Assembly: GCA_009693245.1 (NCBI GenBank)
Contig: SHXO01000008.1
Coordinates: 1 to 54,451 of the forward strand
Reading direction: 5' to 3'
From: Betaproteobacteria bacterium
GTDB taxonomy: Bacteria > Pseudomonadota > Gammaproteobacteria > Burkholderiales > SHXO01
Length of the DNA stretch: 54,451 bases
The notes under the pieces were generated by a model. The model was not told the DNA's origin. It was given only the letters and a program-made list of their open reading frames with translations, and ran no database searches. A program made the position numbers and the translations under genes. Shown in pieces: positions 37,845-47,631 of the stretch; position 1 is the first letter of the stretch, and every line of letters begins with the position of its first letter.

Positions 37845-38495
37845 GTGACATCCGCGGATATCGCCCGGATCGCCAAGGCAACGCTGGAGAGTTACGCGGT
37901 GCGTGCCGGTGAATTTTGGGAAGGCACGAAAGACCACGACGTGAGCCAGAATGTCTGCGCGTTTCTGGCTCATGTCGTTGCGCCGCCGCCCTTCGTCATC
38001 CTCGATTTCGGTTGCGGGCCCGGGCGCGATCTAAAAACCTTCACCGAGCTTGGCCACGTGGCTACCGGCCTGGAAGGGGCGGCGCCCTTCGCGGAGCAGG
38101 CCCGCGCTTACAGCGGGTGCGAAGTGTGGCTACAGGATTTTCTGAAGCTTGATCTGCCCGAGGGCTGCTTCGATGGAATATTCGCCAATGCCTCGCTCTT
38201 TCACGTGCCATCCGGCGAATTGCCAAGGGTGTTGCGGGAGTTGCACGGCACGTTGAAACCCGGTGGCGTGCTGTTCTCATCCAACCCGCGCGGCAACAAC
38301 GAGGAGGGATGGAACCGGGGGCGCTACGGCGTCTACCACGACCTGGAGAACTGGCGGCGATACATGACCAGTGCCGGGTTCACCGAGTTAGATCACTACT
38401 ACCGGCCGCCCGGCCTGCCTCGCGAACAACAACCTTGGCTCGCCAGCGTGTGGCGAAAGCCTGATGCGCGAACCTCCGCCGGTGGGCAGCAGTAA
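37845..38495 (+). CDS. Class I SAM-dependent methyltransferase
   Basis: 216 residues from a GTG. SAM motif I is VILDFGCGPGRDL; further motifs are GLEGA, FDGIFANASLFHV and LKPGGVLFSSNPRG. A small-molecule methyltransferase is likely, substrate unknown. It overlaps the zinc-ribbon gene by about 30 bases. Confidence 0.87.
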   Translation: MTSADIARIAKATLESYAVRAGEFWEGTKDHDVSQNVCAFLAHVVAPPPFVILDFGCGPGRDLKTFTELGHVATGLEGAAPFAEQARAYSGCEVWLQDFLKLDLPEGCFDGIFANASLFHVPSGELPRVLRELHGTLKPGGVLFSSNPRGNNEEGWNRGRYGVYHDLENWRRYMTSAGFTELDHYYRPPGLPREQQPWLASVWRKPDARTSAGGQQ

Positions 38496-39514: not shown

Positions 39515-40246
39515 ATGGAGCTGGAGCAGATTTTATTCAGCCAGGGCTTCGGCACGCGCCGGCAGTGCCGGATGCTGATCGCGCAAGGCGCGGTCGGCAT
39601 TGGCGGCACGGTGCGCGAGGATCCAGCCGCCGCCTTCGATGTGGACGCGGCGCCGTTCGAATTCGAGGTCAACGGTGAGCGCTGGGTATTTCACACCCGC
39701 GCCTATGTCATGTTGCACAAGCCGGCCGGTTACGAATGCTCGCAAAAACCGAAATCCCATCCCAGCGTCTACCGCTTGCTGCCAGCACCGCTGCGCGAGC
39801 GCGGTAAGGGTGGCGTGCAGGCCGTGGGACGCCTCGACCAGGACGCGACCGGATTGCTGTTGTTCTCCGATAACGGCCAGTTCATTCACCGCATGGCATC
39901 GCTTAAACATCATGTGCCGAAGGTCTACGAAGTAACGGCTTCTGAATCGGTATCACCGTTGCAAATGGAACGGTTGCTGGCCGGTGTCGTGTTGGAGGAC
40001 GATCCCGAGCCCGTGAAGGCCTTGGCCTGCGCTGCCACGGGGCCGTGCCAGATCAGCCTTACGCTGGCTTCCGGCAAGTACCACCAAGTGAAGCGCATGC
40101 TGGCGGCGGTGGGCAATCACGTGGAGCAACTGCATCGCAGCCGAATCGGCGGTCTGGCGCTTCCGCCGGATCTCAAGGCGGGCGAGTGGCGCTGGCTAAG
40201 CGGTGAGCAATTGGCTGCCGTGGCGGGGAGCGCTTCCAGGCGATGA
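39515..40246 (+). CDS. rsuA: 16S rRNA pseudouridine(516) synthase RsuA
   Basis: 243 residues. The N-terminal S4-like domain is LEQILFSQGFGTRRQCRMLI. The catalytic motif is GRLDQDATGLLLFSDNG with Asp in the second position of the usual LDxxTxG. The C-terminal block is SLTLASGKYHQVKRMLAAVGNHVEQLHR. The ATG at 39515 is preferred over 39494 because the S4 domain begins there. Its stop overlaps the following methyltransferase (ATGA). Confidence 0.93.
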   Translation: MELEQILFSQGFGTRRQCRMLIAQGAVGIGGTVREDPAAAFDVDAAPFEFEVNGERWVFHTRAYVMLHKPAGYECSQKPKSHPSVYRLLPAPLRERGKGGVQAVGRLDQDATGLLLFSDNGQFIHRMASLKHHVPKVYEVTASESVSPLQMERLLAGVVLEDDPEPVKALACAATGPCQISLTLASGKYHQVKRMLAAVGNHVEQLHRSRIGGLALPPDLKAGEWRWLSGEQLAAVAGSASRR

Positions 40247-41088
40247 CGCCTAAAGCCCGGCACGACGTTGTGGAAGCGCTTGATCTGCGCCCAGGACAAT
40301 CCCTGGAGTTGCTCAAAGAGTTGCACATCCTCACGCGCGAGGGCCGCATCAACCAGGACAGCCGCCGCAAGTTGAAGCAGGTGAATCATCTGGTTCAGTT
40401 CATCGAGCCACTGCTGCGCGAACTCATGATGCAGCCACGGGACATTCGCCTGGCCGATCACGGCGCGGGCAAGTCCTATCTCGGTTTCATCCTCCACGAT
40501 CTCATCTTCAGGGAGGCGCCGGGTAAGCACCGCATTTTCGGCATCGAGACGCGCGAGGACCTGGTGGAGAAATCGCGCGCCTTGGCCAACAGGCTGGGTT
40601 TCTCTGGTATGTCTTTCCTCAAACTATCGGTCGCGGAGTCGGTTGCCTCGGAGCAATTGCCCGGGGAGGTGGATGTGGTCACCGCGCTGCACGCCTGCGA
40701 TACCGCCACTGACGATGCCATCGCCTTCGCGCTTTCGAAACAGGCGAAACACATCGTGCTAGTGCCTTGCTGCCAGGCCGAGGTGGCCAGCGTATTGCGC
40801 CGTAACAAGGCCGGGCAACTGGCGAGAAGCGCGCTGGGTGAAATCTGGCGCCATCCGCTACACACGCGCGAGTTCGGCAGCCAGGTCACCAACGTGTTGC
40901 GCTGCCTGCAATTGGAAGCTCATGGTTACAGCGTGACCGTCACCGAACTGGTCGGCTGGGAGCACTCCATGAAAAACGAACTCATCATCGCAAGCCGAAA
41001 AAATGAAACAGACGCGCGTGCCGCCCAGCGCTTGCAGGAGATACTGCAAACGCTGGGACTCGAGAAATTGCGCCCGCGGTTTTGCTAG
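40243..41088 (+). CDS. SAM-dependent methyltransferase (Methyltransf_32-like)
   Basis: 281 residues. The motif ADHGAGKSYLGFILHDLIF is the SAM-binding segment of a group related to PF13679, with VVTALHACDTATDDAIAFAL and HIVLVPCCQAEV following, as in RNA- or protein-methylating relatives. It is coupled to rsuA and ends in a four-base tail-to-tail overlap with senA. It does not look like the histidine methyltransferase EgtD. Confidence 0.82.
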   Translation: MTPKARHDVVEALDLRPGQSLELLKELHILTREGRINQDSRRKLKQVNHLVQFIEPLLRELMMQPRDIRLADHGAGKSYLGFILHDLIFREAPGKHRIFGIETREDLVEKSRALANRLGFSGMSFLKLSVAESVASEQLPGEVDVVTALHACDTATDDAIAFALSKQAKHIVLVPCCQAEVASVLRRNKAGQLARSALGEIWRHPLHTREFGSQVTNVLRCLQLEAHGYSVTVTELVGWEHSMKNELIIASRKNETDARAAQRLQEILQTLGLEKLRPRFC

Positions 41089-42395
41089 GCCTCTATTGGC
41101 AAGGGCTCCAACGTGCGCGCCGTTCTAAACCCCGCGAAGACGTCACCGCGATCCGGCGTGTAGAAATTGCGAAACCGGTTATGCACCAGGCGCGACTTGG
41201 TGGCGAAGCAACCGCCCCTGAGCACGCGATGGTTGTGGAACCAGGGTTCGGAATATTCCTTGTAGGGGTCCGTTGCGAAATCAGGGTAGGGCGTGAAAGC
41301 GCTCGACGTCCACTCCCACACGTTACCGATCAATTGCCGAACATTGGCGGGCGTGTCCGAGCCGATCAGGGCGGACACCGGGGTGAGGCCCGCGAACATC
41401 CCGTTCACGTTGACCATGCCCGCCGCAGGCTGCGCATAACCCCAGGGATAGCGATATTCGGACAAGGCCTCGGCGCGTGCCGCGTATTCCCATTCCGCTT
41501 CCGATGGCAGACGCTGGCCAACGAAGTTGCAATAGGCTTCCGCCTCGTACGCGTTGACATGGATCACCGGGTTGTCCATGAGCAAGGCTTCCCATCGATC
41601 GAAGCGGCGCGTGTGCCATTTGTCATTGATCTTCTTCCAATAACGCGGTACGCTCGATTTTTCTTTTTGCAGCCATTGCCAACCTTCCGGTGTCCAGAAT
41701 TCCTGGCAGCGGTACCCACCTGCTTCCACGAAGGCGATGTATTGCTCGTTGCTCACGGCCGCGCAAGAGATGGCGAAGGGCGGTAGCTCCACCTCGTGCG
41801 CCCACTTTTCGTTGTCGAACACGAAGTCCTCGCTTGCCCGTCCGGCGCCCATCATGAACTTGCCCCCGGCGTACTCCACCTCCTGTTTGATGGGTTGGGT
41901 CTTTGGGCGTGGCAAATGGAAGGGGCGAAACTTCGGCCCAGGGAGGCCCAGCGTCTGCAAGGTCATGAGCAAGGCTTCGCCGTGCATGTCCTCGTGAAAC
42001 AGTGCTAGTTGAAAGAAGTAACGCTCCTCGGGGGCGGATTTCTCCGATGCCGCCAGGGTATCGTTCAGCACCGAGTCGAGGTAGGCCAAGATGCTGTCCC
42101 ACTGCCACGTATTGAGCTTCCAGCGCTCCTCATGGGGAACCATTGCGGAGTCGAGCATCGCATCGGCGTTGGGCAACCGGGGCGGGAGGGCGTCTTTGCC
42201 GGGCCGGTGGCGCAGGCACCAATACTCCTGAAACCATCCGATATGCCCCAACTCCCATTGGGGCGGATTGACGATGGGCAACCGCGGAAAATTGCGCTGG
42301 TCCTCGGTCACGTGCTTGTAAAGTGTCAGCGTATATTCCCGCGCATCTTGCAGGGCTACCTGCAGCGCGGGAAGTGAAGTCATTAGCGATCGCAT
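41085..42395 (-). CDS. senA: Selenoneine synthase SenA (EgtB-like sulfoxide-synthase fold)
   Basis: 436 residues from the ATG at 42395, which has GGGGGAA five bases upstream. The DinB-like N-terminal half carries the three iron-binding histidines His51 (LGHIGWFQEYW), His134 and His138 (LFHEDMH). The C-terminal half is a formylglycine-generating-enzyme-type domain (VSNEQYIAFVEAGGY, RLPSEAEWEYAARA, GNVWEWT, VLRGGCFATK, FRNFYTPDRGDVFAGFR). In ergothioneine synthesis EgtB joins hercynine to a thiol. Next to senB and selD, the SenA variant, which joins hercynine to a selenosugar to give selenoneine, is the likely identity. Hercynine-forming egtD is not in the window. Confidence 0.9.
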   Translation of the reverse strand: MRSLMTSLPALQVALQDAREYTLTLYKHVTEDQRNFPRLPIVNPPQWELGHIGWFQEYWCLRHRPGKDALPPRLPNADAMLDSAMVPHEERWKLNTWQWDSILAYLDSVLNDTLAASEKSAPEERYFFQLALFHEDMHGEALLMTLQTLGLPGPKFRPFHLPRPKTQPIKQEVEYAGGKFMMGAGRASEDFVFDNEKWAHEVELPPFAISCAAVSNEQYIAFVEAGGYRCQEFWTPEGWQWLQKEKSSVPRYWKKINDKWHTRRFDRWEALLMDNPVIHVNAYEAEAYCNFVGQRLPSEAEWEYAARAEALSEYRYPWGYAQPAAGMVNVNGMFAGLTPVSALIGSDTPANVRQLIGNVWEWTSSAFTPYPDFATDPYKEYSEPWFHNHRVLRGGCFATKSRLVHNRFRNFYTPDRGDVFAGFRTARTLEPLPIEA

Positions 42396-43395
42396 GAATT
42401 CCCCCGTTGTTCGAATAGTCACGCCTGCCCGCTCCGATGCCAACAACGGCAATTGGAGAACCGCTCAGCGGTGGGCCGGTTTCCTCCGTGACGAATGCGA
42501 GGTGATTCTACAAGGGGCCGGTGCTCACGATGGGAGGCGGGATGGCGGGGCCGATGTCCTCATCGCGCTTCACGCCACCCGTAGCCATGCCACGATACGG
42601 CGCTGGCGTGAAAGTAAAACCCGCGCGCCCCTTATCCTGATTCTGACGGGCACGGATCTCTACCGAGATTTGCCGAAGAACGCGCAGACCCGAGAATCCC
42701 TGCACATGGCTGATTGCCTGGTAGTGCTTCAACGGCAAGCCCCGGATGCAATTTCGCCAGAGTTGCGTCCCAAGGTGCGAGTCGTCTACCAATCGGCCAA
42801 ACTTCTCCCCCATGTCCAATCGCGCGCAAGGGGCCTAAATTGCGTCTTCGTGGGGCATCTGCGTGAAGAGAAAGACCCTCTCACGGCAGTTCGAGCATGG
42901 CAGTATCTGCCGTCGCATCTTCCCATTGCGCTCACCATCGTGGGTGGCGAATTGGATGAAGGTCTTGCGCGCGCCGTGCGAGCGGCGGCGAGAAAGGATT
43001 CCCGCATTCGTTGGTTGGGCGCCAAACCGCACGAGTGGACCTTGCGCGCGATTCAGCGCGGGGATTTGCTCATCAACGCTTCGCGCATGGAAGGCGGTGC
43101 CCACGTCATTGCGGAAGCCGTGCGCGCCGCTACCCCCGTGCTTGCCAGTCATATGCCGGGCAACGTGGGCATGCTAGGGCGCTCATACTCAGGCTATTTC
43201 GAGGTGGGGGATGCGCGCGGATTAGCCGCGCTATTGACGGGTCGCTTGCGACACCGAATGGCCTACGACACTTTGCTTGGGCAAACCCTACGCATGCAAG
43301 GGCTATTTGCCCCCGCGCGCGAAGCGGCCAGCGTAAGGCAGCTCGTTGCGGATATGCTGGGATGGCATAAAATGCCCGCCAAGGAGGATTTATGA
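42394..43395 (+). CDS. senB: Selenosugar synthase SenB (TIGR04348-type glycosyltransferase)
   Basis: 333 residues of GT-B fold. It starts VVRIVTPARSDANNGNWRTAQRWAGFL, the pattern of the TIGR04348 family, has LTGTDLYRD and LVVLQ in the first domain, and VFVGHLREEKDP and INASRMEGGAHVIAEAV in the second. SenB uses selenophosphate and a UDP-sugar to make a selenosugar. The ATG shares its A and T with the complement of the senA start (CATG), and the stop overlaps selD (ATGA). Confidence 0.92.
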   Translation: MNSPVVRIVTPARSDANNGNWRTAQRWAGFLRDECEVILQGAGAHDGRRDGGADVLIALHATRSHATIRRWRESKTRAPLILILTGTDLYRDLPKNAQTRESLHMADCLVVLQRQAPDAISPELRPKVRVVYQSAKLLPHVQSRARGLNCVFVGHLREEKDPLTAVRAWQYLPSHLPIALTIVGGELDEGLARAVRAAARKDSRIRWLGAKPHEWTLRAIQRGDLLINASRMEGGAHVIAEAVRAATPVLASHMPGNVGMLGRSYSGYFEVGDARGLAALLTGRLRHRMAYDTLLGQTLRMQGLFAPAREAASVRQLVADMLGWHKMPAKEDL

Positions 43396-44444
43396 ACGCA
43401 CCTGACTTCAAACCTGTCCGCCTGACCAGCCTCTCCCACGGCGGGGGTTGCGGCTGCAAGATCGCGCCCGAGTTGTTGGAGCAAATCATCGCGAAAACGG
43501 CGGCGAGTTTCGTTCCGAAGGAATTGCTGGTGGGCATCGAAACCAGCGACGATGCCGCCGTGTACCAGATCAACGAAACCCAAGCCATCGTGGCGACGAC
43601 GGATTTCTTCATGCCCATCGTGGATGACCCCTACGATTTCGGCGCCATCGCGGCCACCAATGCCATCTCCGATGTGTACGCCATGGGCGGCACGCCGCTG
43701 TTCGCGCTGGCCTTGGTGGGCATGCCCATCAACGTGCTGCCCATGGAAACCATACGCCGCATATTGGAGGGAGGCGAATCCGTGTGCAAGCGCGCGGGCA
43801 TTCCCATCGCGGGCGGGCATAGCATCGATTCCGTCGAGCCCATTTACGGATTGGTCGCCATCGGCTTGGTCGATCCCAAGAATCTCAAGCGCAACTCGGC
43901 CGCTATTCCGGGCGACAAAATCATCCTCGGCAAGCCGCTCGGCGTCGGCATATACAGCGCGGCGCTGAAGAAAGACGCACTCTCCGCGGAGGGCTACCGG
44001 GCCATGCTGGCCACCACCACCCAACTCAACACGCCCGGTTCTTCCCTCGGCGGCGTGCCAGGCGTGCATGCGTTGACCGACGTCACGGGGTTTGGATTGC
44101 TGGGTCATCTGCTGGAGGTGTGCAAGGGATCGAAACTCGGCGCGCGCTTGGAATGGGACAAGGTGCCTTTGCTGCCTGGCGTTCTGGATCTAGTGAAGGA
44201 GGGCTACAGAACCGGCGCCTCGGGGCGCAACTGGGCCGGCTACGGCAGCCGTGTCGAGCTAGGGGCATACGGTGATGTGCAACGCGACCTGCTCACGGAT
44301 CCGCAGACGAGCGGAGGCCTATTGGTGACATGCCGGCCTAGCGCGGCGGCGGCCGTGATCGCGGAATTCCAACGGGCGGGATTCGGCCAAGCGGCGGTGA
44401 TCGGCGATATGACGCCGGGAGATCCTTGTGTCGAATTGCGGTGA
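43392..44444 (+). CDS. selD: Selenide, water dikinase (SelD / SenC)
   Basis: 350 residues. The glycine-rich N-terminal loop GGGCGCK has the catalytic Cys20 and Lys23. ATTDFFMPIVDDPYDFGAIAATNAISDVYAMGG appears here in shorter form as the metal/ATP block, and LTDVTGFGLLGHL and DPQTSGGLL are both SelD hallmarks. It makes selenophosphate from selenide and ATP. Its direct coupling to senB means it supplies the selenoneine route and corresponds to SenC. The active-site residue is Cys, not selenocysteine. No selA, selB or selC is in the window, so a second role in selenoprotein synthesis cannot be judged. Confidence 0.95.
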   Translation: MNAPDFKPVRLTSLSHGGGCGCKIAPELLEQIIAKTAASFVPKELLVGIETSDDAAVYQINETQAIVATTDFFMPIVDDPYDFGAIAATNAISDVYAMGGTPLFALALVGMPINVLPMETIRRILEGGESVCKRAGIPIAGGHSIDSVEPIYGLVAIGLVDPKNLKRNSAAIPGDKIILGKPLGVGIYSAALKKDALSAEGYRAMLATTTQLNTPGSSLGGVPGVHALTDVTGFGLLGHLLEVCKGSKLGARLEWDKVPLLPGVLDLVKEGYRTGASGRNWAGYGSRVELGAYGDVQRDLLTDPQTSGGLLVTCRPSAAAAVIAEFQRAGFGQAAVIGDMTPGDPCVELR

Positions 44445-44458
44445 GTGAGGGCGCGCGG

Positions 44459-45241
44459 ATGAACATCATCGAGAACGAAATTTGGGCTGAATTGAAACGC
44501 CTCGCCATCGCGGAGGCGGAAAAAGAGCCGCTGCTGGCCGATCACCTCTACGATCTGGTCACCCGCCACGAGGGTTACCCAGAAGCGCTGGCCCATCTGC
44601 TGGCGGTCAATCTGCGGGATAGCACTCTGGACAGCGACGCCTTGGACGATTTTTTTTCCGAGACCATCACGCGAAACGCTAACATCGCCACGGCGAGCCT
44701 CTACGATCTGCAAGCCATTCGGGAGCGCGATCCCGCCTGCGAGAACGTGCTGGTTCCATTCCTCTACTACAAAGGCTTCAAGGCCTTGCAGACCCACCGC
44801 GTTGCCCACGAGTTGTGGAAGGAAGGCCGCCGGCAAGTCGCGCGCTTTCTGCAATCGCGCGTGTCCGATGCCTATGGTGTGGATATCAACCCCGGCGCGC
44901 AGATTGGCAAGGGCGTGTTCATAGACCACGCCACCAGCATCGTCATAGGCGAGACCGCCGTGGTGGAAGACGATGTGTCCATGCTGCACGAAGTCAATCT
45001 CGGTGGCACTGGCAAGGTGAGTGGCGACCGGCATCCCAAGATTCGGCGCGGCGTGATGATCGGCGCCGGCGCGAAGATCCTGGGCAACATCGAAGTGGGA
45101 GAAGGTTCGAAGATCGCCGCCGGCAGCGTGGTGCTGAAGCCCGTGCCGCCGCACACCACCGTTGCCGGTGTGCCAGCCAAACCCGTGGGCACGCCAAGCT
45201 CCGCAGTGCCGGCCTTCGACATGCGGCAAGACTTGGAGTGA
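44459..45241 (+). CDS. cysE: Serine O-acetyltransferase
   Basis: 260 residues. An alpha-helical N-terminal domain (IWAELKRLAIAEAEKEPLLA) is followed by a left-handed beta-helix of hexapeptide repeats with the catalytic GVFIDHATSIVIGET and the closing IAAGSVVLKPVPPHTTVAGVPAKPVG. It makes O-acetylserine for cysteine synthesis. It follows selD by 14 bases, so it is probably in the sen transcript, linking sulfur and selenium amino acid metabolism. Confidence 0.95.
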   Translation: MNIIENEIWAELKRLAIAEAEKEPLLADHLYDLVTRHEGYPEALAHLLAVNLRDSTLDSDALDDFFSETITRNANIATASLYDLQAIRERDPACENVLVPFLYYKGFKALQTHRVAHELWKEGRRQVARFLQSRVSDAYGVDINPGAQIGKGVFIDHATSIVIGETAVVEDDVSMLHEVNLGGTGKVSGDRHPKIRRGVMIGAGAKILGNIEVGEGSKIAAGSVVLKPVPPHTTVAGVPAKPVGTPSSAVPAFDMRQDLE

Positions 45242-45277
45242 GGGGGACTCTCGCGGCGTAGACCCGCGATCCAATCC

Positions 45278-45934
45278 ATGAGCCGCGCATCTCTGGACAA
45301 GAAGCTTGAGGCCTTATCCGCGTTGCGCGCCTTGCCGGTCACCGAAGCGGCTCACGCGCAGGTGCGTAAAGCGCTGCGTGACCCGAGCAATTACGTGTGC
45401 GCCAAGGCCGCTACCCTGGCGGGCGAGTTGGAATTGCGCGCGCTGATACCGGATCTCCTCGAAGTCCTAGATCATCATCTCGCCGGGGGAAGCGGCACCG
45501 ACACTCAATGCTGGGCAAAGAACGCCATCATTGAAACGCTTTCCCGCCTTGGGCACAACGACGCCACAGTGTTCTTGCCAGGCATGGCGCACTTTCAGCC
45601 CGAACCGGTATGGGGCGGCAGCGAGGATACGGCAGCCGCCTTGCGGGGGAGTTGTGCGCTGGCTCTGGCGCAGACTTCGATCGATGATCAACACGCGCTC
45701 ACCAGGTTGGTCGATTTTCTGGGCGATCCGGAGAAGCCAGTGCGCACCGAAGCGGTCCGGGCAATTGCTCTTTTCACCAGTGAGCCGGTGCCCTTACTGC
45801 TGCGATTGAAGGCCATACGCGCATTGGCCAACAGCAGGTATCGCGAAACGGTGGAGGAACTGGTGCGAGAAATCGTGACCAAGCGCGGGGAGTGTGCGCT
45901 CGCCAATGCATTCGCAAAGGAGTTTGCAAGTTGA
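45278..45934 (+). CDS. HEAT-repeat domain protein
   Basis: 218 residues of helical repeats, for example VRKALRDPSNYVCAKAATLAGELELRALIPDLLEVL and LGDPEKPVRTEAVRAIALF, each with the Asp-Pro..Val-Arg pattern of bacterial HEAT-like repeats. It is probably an adaptor protein. It lies 36 bases after cysE and its stop overlaps the GNAT start by one base, so it is co-transcribed. Confidence 0.8.
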   Translation: MSRASLDKKLEALSALRALPVTEAAHAQVRKALRDPSNYVCAKAATLAGELELRALIPDLLEVLDHHLAGGSGTDTQCWAKNAIIETLSRLGHNDATVFLPGMAHFQPEPVWGGSEDTAAALRGSCALALAQTSIDDQHALTRLVDFLGDPEKPVRTEAVRAIALFTSEPVPLLLRLKAIRALANSRYRETVEELVREIVTKRGECALANAFAKEFAS

Positions 45935-46455
45935 TGACCCAAGATAACCTTACGATTCGTAGTGCGGGCGAAAGCGATGTGCCCATCCTCCTTGAATTCA
46001 TCAGAGCACTCGCTGAATACGAACGTTTGTCGCATCTGGTTACCGCCACTGAGGTGAGTTTGCGCGAGTCCCTTTTCGGCGCACAGCCTGGCGCCCAGTC
46101 GCTGCTTGCGTTCGAGGACGATACGCCAGTGGGCTTCGCCGTGTACTTCCACAACTTTTCCACCTTCCTCGGCCGCAAAGGCATGTGGTTAGAGGATCTC
46201 TTCGTCAAGCCCGCCTATCGCGGCCGTGGGTACGGCAAGGCTTTGCTGCACCGCGTTGGCCAGATCGCGCATGAACGCGGCTGCGGGCGTTTCGAGTGGT
46301 CCGTGCTGGATTGGAATACGCCCTCCATCGAGTTCTACCGGTCCTTGGGCGCGGAGCCCTTGAACGATTGGACCATTTTTCGCATGACGGGAAAGAGCTT
46401 GGAGCAGTTCGCCCAGAGCAGTTCTGTTTCCACTATACAAGCGGGGACTCCATGA
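45934..46455 (+). CDS. GNAT family N-acetyltransferase
   Basis: 173 residues. It starts LTIRSAGESDVPILLEFIRALAEYERL, has the acetyl-CoA loop VKPAYRGRGYGKALL (R/QxxGxG/A) and the C-terminal WNTPSIEFYRSLGAEPL. This architecture is of the diamine (thialysine/spermidine) acetyltransferase-like group. Coupled at both ends with its neighbours. Substrate unknown. Confidence 0.88.
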   Translation: MTQDNLTIRSAGESDVPILLEFIRALAEYERLSHLVTATEVSLRESLFGAQPGAQSLLAFEDDTPVGFAVYFHNFSTFLGRKGMWLEDLFVKPAYRGRGYGKALLHRVGQIAHERGCGRFEWSVLDWNTPSIEFYRSLGAEPLNDWTIFRMTGKSLEQFAQSSSVSTIQAGTP

Positions 46456-47631
46456 GCATTCACGCGGAACTCGGCGAGTTACGCCAAGCCTTCGACGCCA
46501 TGCAACCCGAACTGGAACTCACGGCGCGCGATCCCGCCATGGGCGTGGAGGGCTACGTGGTGGTATGGAACACCGGCATCAGTACCGGCGGACCGCTGGA
46601 ACGTTGCGGCAAGGGCGGTACGCGAATCACTCCGACACTGACTTTAGATGAAGTGAAGATGCTGGCGCGCACCATGGCGCTCAAGAATGCCGCCGCCGGA
46701 TGGTGCCAAGTCCGGCCTCAAGCTGGATCCCCTGGCGCCCGGATTCGAAAAACAGTACCGCCGCTTCGTGCGCCTATGCGCTCCGGTCTTGCATGAAAAC
46801 GGTGGCCCGTTCGGCGAATTAGGCTTCGATATCGGTGGCCGTCCGGAGCATGCGCTATGGGCCTGCGATGAACTCGAGTCCACCCGTTGTTTCACTGGAA
46901 AGCCCCTGCACATGGGCGGCACCGACTACGACCGTGAAGGCATCGCCGGGTTGGGCGTGGCGGTTGCGGGTGCGACCATGATGCAGGAGCGCGGAGAGAG
47001 CCCGGCCCAAGCCACCTTCGCCATCCAAGGCATGGGTGCTATGGGCGCGGCGGTCTTGCGCTACTTCAGCGAATACGGTGCGCAATTGACCGCATTGGGC
47101 GATCCGAAGTACGGCGGTACCTGGACTTTTTCGAAGCCGCTTTCCGATGCGTTGCATCGCGCGCTGGTCAACCAGGACAGCGATGACGCCGTGAAGTTGC
47201 TGGCGAAAGAAGCTTTGAAGATCTCGGAAAATTCTCAGGATGTTCTCTATCAAAAAGCCAGCATTCTTTTCCCCTGCGCGATTCAGAACGTCGTCCGCGA
47301 AGACAACGTTCATCGCGTTCAAGCACGCTACGTGTGCGAAGGCGCCAACAGCCCGGTAACCCCGGGCGCTCGCACGGCGTTACACCAACGCGGAGTCTCC
47401 CTCATGCCGGATTTCATTGCGAACTCTGGGGGCATCTTCGCGGCCTTCGTGGAACTGACTTCAAGTACACCGAACAAGGCCGGGGAAGCGAAGACGCTCG
47501 CGCGAGAGAAGATCGGCGCCAATGTTCGGCAGTTGTTCGAGATCTGCGGCCGCCAAGGTTGCGAGCCTCAGGACGCGGCGATGTATATGGCGCTATCGAG
47601 AATTCAGCGGACTACTTATGCCGGTGGTTGA
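46452..47631 (+). pseudogene. Glu/Leu/Phe/Val dehydrogenase, frameshifted
   Basis: The first frame (from the ATG at 46452) has MSIHAELGE and GYVVVWNTGISTGGPLERCGKGGTRI, breaking at MALKNAAAG. The second frame resumes within about 15 bases as DGAKSGLKLDP, with the catalytic Lys, then the Rossmann motif IQGMGAMGAAVLRYFSEYGAQL and CEGANSPVTPGA. About five bases coding for the Leu-Pro of AAGLP..GGAKSG seem deleted near 46692-46700. An ATG at 46687 opens the second frame, but a protein starting there would lack the substrate domain. The gene overlaps the GNAT stop (ATGA). Confidence 0.85.

Follow-up and report, generated by a model that had tools for sequence, protein, structure and literature searches.

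Selenoneine, an antioxidant that contains selenium, is made by a pathway in which selenophosphate gives rise to a selenosugar, the selenosugar is joined to hercynine, and selenoneine is formed (PMC9814287); portions of PMC10702425 and PMC10903977 give the same steps. Here we analyzed a stretch of 54,451 nucleotides (contig SHXO01000008.1 of assembly GCA_009693245.1; the whole stretch is referred to as the window), which carries senA divergent from senB and senC (selD) and comes from a genome that is probably betaproteobacterial. The original prediction, made from the sequence alone, had taken this gene set to mean that the organism makes selenoneine, and family models, trees, catalytic residues and gene context all support that claim. 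We consider it highly probable that the window holds a complete senABC locus for selenoneine, with the hercynine coming from an EgtD whose gene was lost in an assembly gap; the organism is one more predicted selenoneine maker. The locus is an ordinary example of a known system, one that is common in the order: SenB is over the model cut-off in 86 of 300 genomes sampled from this order.

The enzyme activities, and selenoneine production itself, are predicted from characterised homologues. SelD/SenC would convert selenide to selenophosphate, and SenB would place the selenium onto a uridine diphosphate (UDP)-sugar and cleave the Se-P bond, giving a selenosugar. Using iron and O2, SenA would join the selenosugar to hercynine, and the selenoxide would then break down to selenoneine. 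The hercynine would be provided by EgtD and shared with ergothioneine synthesis. The features of the locus are as follows.

41085..42395, minus strand: senA, predicted selenoneine synthase (436 residues), a mononuclear iron enzyme of the EgtB superfamily; evidence NF041186, His51/134/138, tree clade, SEPWF
42394..43395, plus strand: senB, predicted selenosugar synthase (333 residues); evidence TIGR04348, residues, EGGAHV, PDB matches
43392..44444, plus strand: senC (selD), predicted selenide water dikinase (350 residues); evidence TIGR00476, NF002098
42393..42396, both strands: CATG in which the senA (minus) and senB (plus) start codons overlap; evidence sequence
43381..43395, plus strand: ribosome-binding site AAGGAGG (43381-43387), then ATGA, in which the senB stop and selD start overlap (43392-43395)

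As first described, an EgtB-like protein with a three-His site (His51, His134 and His138, numbered from the ATG at 42395) is encoded head to head with a TIGR04348 glycosyltransferase, which is coupled to selD by the ATGA overlap. The first ATGs of senA and senB sit in one palindrome, CATG, and with these starts there is zero intergenic DNA. Because the two starts overlap, the promoter of each gene should lie inside the reading frame of its partner or further up. A promoter scan of 41000-45400 found 0 sigma-70-like sites, where shuffled sequence averages 1.1.

Comparison with known systems

The window SenB was scanned against a genome collection, giving 408 relatives, and the best 80 loci were examined. 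Below, L numbers denote sen loci, G000 is the window genome, G001-G003 are its congeners, and other G numbers are sampled genomes; start-to-start distances in relatives are estimates from tblastn coordinates. The sen cluster of Variovorax paradoxus DSM 30034 has the same three genes, the tested SenB residues and the SenA C-terminal motif found in the window. Its gene order was compared via Variovorax sp. L108, which has divergent senA and senB like the window, with a gap of ~43 bases where the window start codons overlap in CATG. V. paradoxus SenA is short, whereas the window SenA is of a long form with ~42 extra residues before VWEWT.

Six loci from Burkholderiales/Betaproteobacteria metagenome-assembled genomes (L051, L055, L057, L063, L064 and L095, with L057 labelled Lysobacter) encode proteins 48-51% (SenA), 47-50% (SenB) and 72-74% (SelD) identical to those of the window. 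The L095 contig ends within senA, and the five others have a 4-base start-to-start gap. All six have a convergent egtD behind selD (with egtB between in L064 and L095), whereas the window carries cysE downstream of selD instead.

Two other enzyme types share features with the window protein. OvsA (PDB 8ux5, 8u41), of the pathway to ovoselenol (a compound mentioned in portions of PMC13188914 and PMC12631010), has the long form and the iron site and matches with 275 bits, but it differs in its STLQF/HKTTKGG motif and its tree position. EgtB type II (PDB 6o6l, Cabther) belongs to the same superfamily and has the three-His site, but its HEQQH and NGKFM motifs differ.

Assignment of SenA

The window SenA passed the NCBIfam SenA model NF041186 (482 bits, cut-off 420) and failed the EgtB model TIGR03440 (327 bits, cut-off 360). 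Because OvsA also passes NF041186 (434 bits), that model is not diagnostic for SenA. The signature model TIGR04373 (cut-off 71) was passed by the window protein (94.8) and failed by OvsA (54.5). At the C-terminal motif, the window protein has SEPWF/HRVLRGG, compared to SAPWF/RRVLRGA in V. paradoxus SenA, STLQF/HKTTKGG in OvsA and NGKFM in EgtB; PWF is present in 72 of the 79 SenA-side rows other than OvsA, the remainder being five with PWW, one with PYF and one with a gap.

In the tree of SenA and EgtB sequences that had been proposed as a check (90 rows, full spans, nine identical rows dropped; L001-L004, L013 and L050, which are second copies of other loci, are omitted from the SenA trees), the window protein groups with SenA, not with EgtB or OvsA. 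It sits in a 10-row long-form clade (support 99/96), and its closest SenA relative is L141 (genome G212; 54% identity). This clade joins, with moderate support (84/91), a 44-row clade that includes V. paradoxus SenA and consists of 42 short-form rows and two that are nearly short (25 and 27 residues in the variable stretch). The SenA-side rows (n = 80) comprise 43 of the short form and 37 of the long form. A tree from the best domain per row only, in which short-form C-termini were cut off, did not settle the position of the window clade; using full spans moved it beside V. paradoxus SenA.

An ordinary EgtB of ergothioneine synthesis that merely lies beside a glycosyltransferase and selD would account for the superfamily and the three-His site equally well, yet we give this explanation an exceedingly slim chance. 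Apart from the results with the EgtB and SenA models, the window protein is separated in the tree from EgtB type II, which forms its own clade with full support (100/100). Furthermore, G000 has a separate true EgtB (see below), and a divergent SenA-class gene adjoins senB in 39 of the 80 loci. With the tree and the family models against it, true EgtB identity for the window gene was rejected.

The chief alternative on chemical grounds is an OvsA-type selenoxide synthase, which would place selenium onto histidine in the ovoselenol pathway, in which case EgtD would be unneeded and its absence real. OvsA is said, in work of 2024 by Kayrouz, to form ovoselenol from histidine. Several observations fit such an enzyme and count against SenA: the nearest PDB structure to the window protein by score is OvsA 8ux5, which aligns as a single stretch (9-426) at 275 bits, whereas V. 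paradoxus SenA 8ryz/8k5i reaches 247 bits and aligns in two pieces; the variable stretch has 52 residues in the window protein and 53 in OvsA versus 10 in V. paradoxus SenA; OvsA passes the SenA model; and no EgtD was found in the assembly. In addition, we know of no biochemical assay of a long-form SenA, the characterised V. paradoxus SenA being of the short form. The difference in PDB score, however, goes with the length of the variable stretch. In the tree, OvsA pairs with L157 (98/97), while the window clade joins that of V. paradoxus SenA; OvsA sits on a long branch, as does the M. thermoresistibile EgtB, and the placement of OvsA is less sure than its support value. The window motif is SenA-like, TIGR04373 separates the two proteins, and egtD is found near senA in 6 of the 9 relatives in the window clade. 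Taken together, this makes an OvsA-type enzyme very unlikely, and the comparisons support the assignment of 41085-42395 as SenA rather than EgtB or OvsA. Because long-form SenA is linked to egtD and by phylogeny to SenA, it would be expected to make selenoneine.

L157 itself (G101:C226:48237-49529) is a second SenA-class gene, located on a contig other than that of senB, and it has the motif SAPWF despite its pairing with OvsA. G101 also has a SenA adjoining senB.

SenB, SelD and selenium metabolism

The window SenB passed TIGR04348, a model now named SenB (358 bits, cut-off 300). It is 47% identical to V. paradoxus SenB over 314 positions, and its top 4 PDB matches are SenB-family chains. The ten tested SenB residues (N20, T23, H58, R61, T83, T85, D86, R155, K158 and E231, following the numbering in a portion of PMC10891094) are all kept in the window protein, as is EGGAHV. 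The original prediction had looked to SenB-specific residues as a check, and these are indeed present, but they lack the diagnostic value given to them: the ten are also intact in all 54 TIGR04348 rows whose examined locus DNA has no SenA, and thus do not certify a selenoneine SenB.

In a SenB tree made by a quick method, with support from the Shimodaira-Hasegawa-like approximate likelihood ratio test (SH-aLRT) and no bootstrap, the window SenB falls in an 8-row set with L051, L052, L055, L057, L063, L064 and L095 (SH-aLRT 96). This grouping, which is stronger evidence than the residues, holds the SenB of 6 of the 9 SenA clade relatives, plus that of L095; the SenB of G212 (L141) is not included in the tree. 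Less favorably for our interpretation, the window SenB is a long branch, and SenB of L069 and L079, whose SenA proteins belong to the window clade, is placed elsewhere. The agreement between the SenA and SenB trees is thus partial.

Eight genomes of family f18 (G020, G066, G109, G147, G183, G214, G244 and G274) encode a divergent SenB-like protein that scores 156-229 bits against TIGR04348. In G147, G244 and G274, the SenB-like gene adjoins a SenA-class protein (422, 384 and 347 bits, respectively) and an EgtD match, which is below the cut-off in G274. Because these genes sit beside SenA-class and EgtD matches, the TIGR04348 cut-off probably misses real sen loci.

The window SelD passed both TIGR00476 (423 bits, cut-off 125) and NF002098 (527 bits, cut-off 299), and a search of its own genome found it to be the only SelD over the cut-off in G000. 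SelU (tRNA 2-selenouridine synthase) is present in G000, and SelA was not found there. Both SenB and SelU are most likely supplied by this one SelD. The sen locus is patchy within the genus: among the 4 genomes of the family that were examined, senB is over the cut-off only in G000, and its absence from all 3 congeners, two of which are only 68% and 78% complete, is a further point on the unfavorable side. No window neighbor gene was found beside the selD of congeners G001 and G002.

Gene order in related loci

The original prediction had described the gene order of the window as split, as though this were unusual. In fact, divergent senA and senB is the usual arrangement: senA is divergent from and adjacent to senB in 39 of the 80 loci, Variovorax sp. 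L108 included, and SelD directly follows senB in 22 of these 39. A SenA-class match lies elsewhere in the locus in 6 of the 80, and SenA was not found in 35 of the 80 within the DNA examined per locus, some stretches of which end early. The estimated senA-senB start-to-start distance is 4 bases in L051, L052, L055, L057, L063 and L064, and the L069 frames overlap by an estimated 3 bases. In most other loci the distance is ~20-115 bases, the exceptions being L127 (2), L090 (6), L079 (13), L083 (19) and L088 (313).

Twelve of the 80 loci (L053, L066, L080, L092, L094, L096, L099, L105, L110, L111, L120 and L122) have no true SelD beside senB; each has a SelD-like match of 32-35% identity ~1.3 kb behind senB. 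Apart from these, the SelD matches of L082 and L126 are cut by the end of the examined DNA. In G137, G166 and G174, a SelD match of 288-293 bits lies within open frames of 758-899 residues, whose length would fit a fusion of an oxidoreductase with SelD.

Association of EgtD with SenA

Among the 86 SenB genomes of the sample, SenA was called where a listed match reached at least 420 bits or where a listed match lay within 4 kb of senB. By this rule, 65 genomes have SenA, and EgtD is present in 64 of them, with G000 as the exception; EgtD of G033 was counted at 257 bits, below the cut-off of 290.9, since it is cut by the contig start. An EgtB/SenA-class protein at E 1.1e-98 or better occurs in seven of the remaining 21 genomes, and EgtD is present in all 7. 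The other 14 have no EgtB/SenA-class match better than 5.8e-50, and EgtD is present in none of them (0/14). In total, EgtD is found in 71 of the 72 SenB genomes with a SenA/EgtB-class enzyme versus 0 of the 14 without one, G000 being the sole exception.

The same association is seen in the nearest relatives. EgtD lies in the locus DNA of 6 of the 9 SenA clade relatives (L051, L055, L057, L063, L064 and L141), and in L141 egtD is directly upstream of senA. Regarding the three others, the L052 contig stops shortly behind selD and the L079 contig shortly behind senB, and in L069 no EgtD was seen in the locus DNA.

SelD is over the cut-off in all 14 genomes that have SenB but lack both EgtD and any SenA match better than 5.8e-50. 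Six of the 14 have weaker matches, from 1e-46 to 6e-50, which may be, for example, OvoA. The SenA and SenB family models are therefore not specific, given that OvsA passes the former and that 14 of the 86 TIGR04348 genomes lack EgtD and a close SenA/EgtB homologue. Names taken from NF041186 or TIGR04348 alone can mislead, and a pathway should be called only when egtD and a tree back it.

senB adjoins selD in G045 (L173, 8579-10560), G071 (L174, 7676-9818) and G260 (L175, 7981-9965), as well as at loci L016 and L023. These genomes are listed as 100% complete, G045 and G071 being single contigs; they lack any EgtD match, and none of their matches to the SenA model is better than E 2.4e-11. The highest TIGR04348 score among the 300 genomes (449.7) belongs to G045, a genome without SenA or EgtD. 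These orphan senB-selD pairs hint that the end products may be selenosugars, or that an unknown selenometabolite is made.

The location of egtD

The G000 assembly contains 3,001,929 bases in 130 contigs and is 97% complete. The original prediction had noted that egtD is missing from the neighborhood of the sen genes. This observation stands and extends to the whole assembly, but it does not hold up as a real oddity: an assembly gap is the best reading, since egtB is cut at the end of a contig. That contig, C55 (22,203 bases), ends inside the second EgtB-family gene of G000. The gene matched the EgtB model with 358 bits over 285 of its 413 positions, compared to a cut-off of 360 for the whole protein, and in the 90-row tree it falls in the EgtB clade beside the EgtB of congener G002 (100/96). 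Its reading frame is open up to the contig end. By model score and tree position, it is a true EgtB truncated by the contig end. An EgtD match over the cut-off is present in all three congeners, and in G002 it begins 50 bases after the egtB match. Most likely, egtD of G000 would lie in an assembly gap beyond the end of C55, directly behind the truncated egtB, and the apparent hole in the pathway is probably that gap.

A number of results speak against an assembly gap. EgtD was not found anywhere in the G000 assembly, either with TIGR03438 or with PF10017 at E<=1. The last 200 bases of C55 match only themselves at full length, and no continuing contig was found in the assembly. The egtB and egtD genes are ~10 kb apart in G001 and on separate contigs in G003, and G000 and G002 have different genes upstream of egtB; because the spacing and the upstream gene vary, synteny is no proof of a gap. 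In G001, the only congener listed as 100% complete, one TAG interrupts the EgtD match, and the EgtB match is split in two. The positions of these matches are as follows.

G001:C3:54623-55829 and 65691-66584: egtB/egtD matches of congener G001

The egt genes may be decaying in the species of G001, with sequence errors as a possible alternative.

These results bear on the explanation that senABC is real but EgtD is truly absent, with hercynine imported, made by a non-homologous methyltransferase, or no longer made because the pathway is decaying. At 97% completeness little of the genome is missing, and the G001 genes just described would agree with decay. A gene for a class I methyltransferase (PF13679) at 40243-41088 is convergent with senA and overlaps its stop codon. 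However, G000 stands alone, among the 72 SenB genomes with a SenA/EgtB-class protein, in having no EgtD, and it retains a true EgtB, itself hercynine-requiring, that is open to the contig end. The methyltransferase has no NCBIfam match, the genome has no PF10017 match, and no counterpart of the gene was found in any of the 80 sen loci (tblastn, 1e-8). We therefore regard a true absence of EgtD as unlikely. A related possibility, which we regard as quite improbable, is that EgtD is really absent and the long-form SenA uses another acceptor such as histidine, giving an unmethylated or ovoselenol-like selenohistidine and not selenoneine.

The methyltransferase genes at 40243-41088 and 37845-38495 were considered as substitutes for EgtD; both have generic methyltransferase domains only, with no EgtD model match.

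Neighboring genes

senA and the convergent gene at 40243-41088 overlap by 4 bases, with the senA stop codon lying over the end of that gene. GC content at third codon positions is 0.64 in senB, somewhat below the 0.76 of senA and the 0.78 of selD, a difference that is weak evidence of anything. At 46296-47631, an open reading frame, presumably of glutamate dehydrogenase by its look, is split over two frames, with the N-terminal part in one frame to ~46690 and the rest in another; a frameshift in the assembly or a broken gene would account for it.

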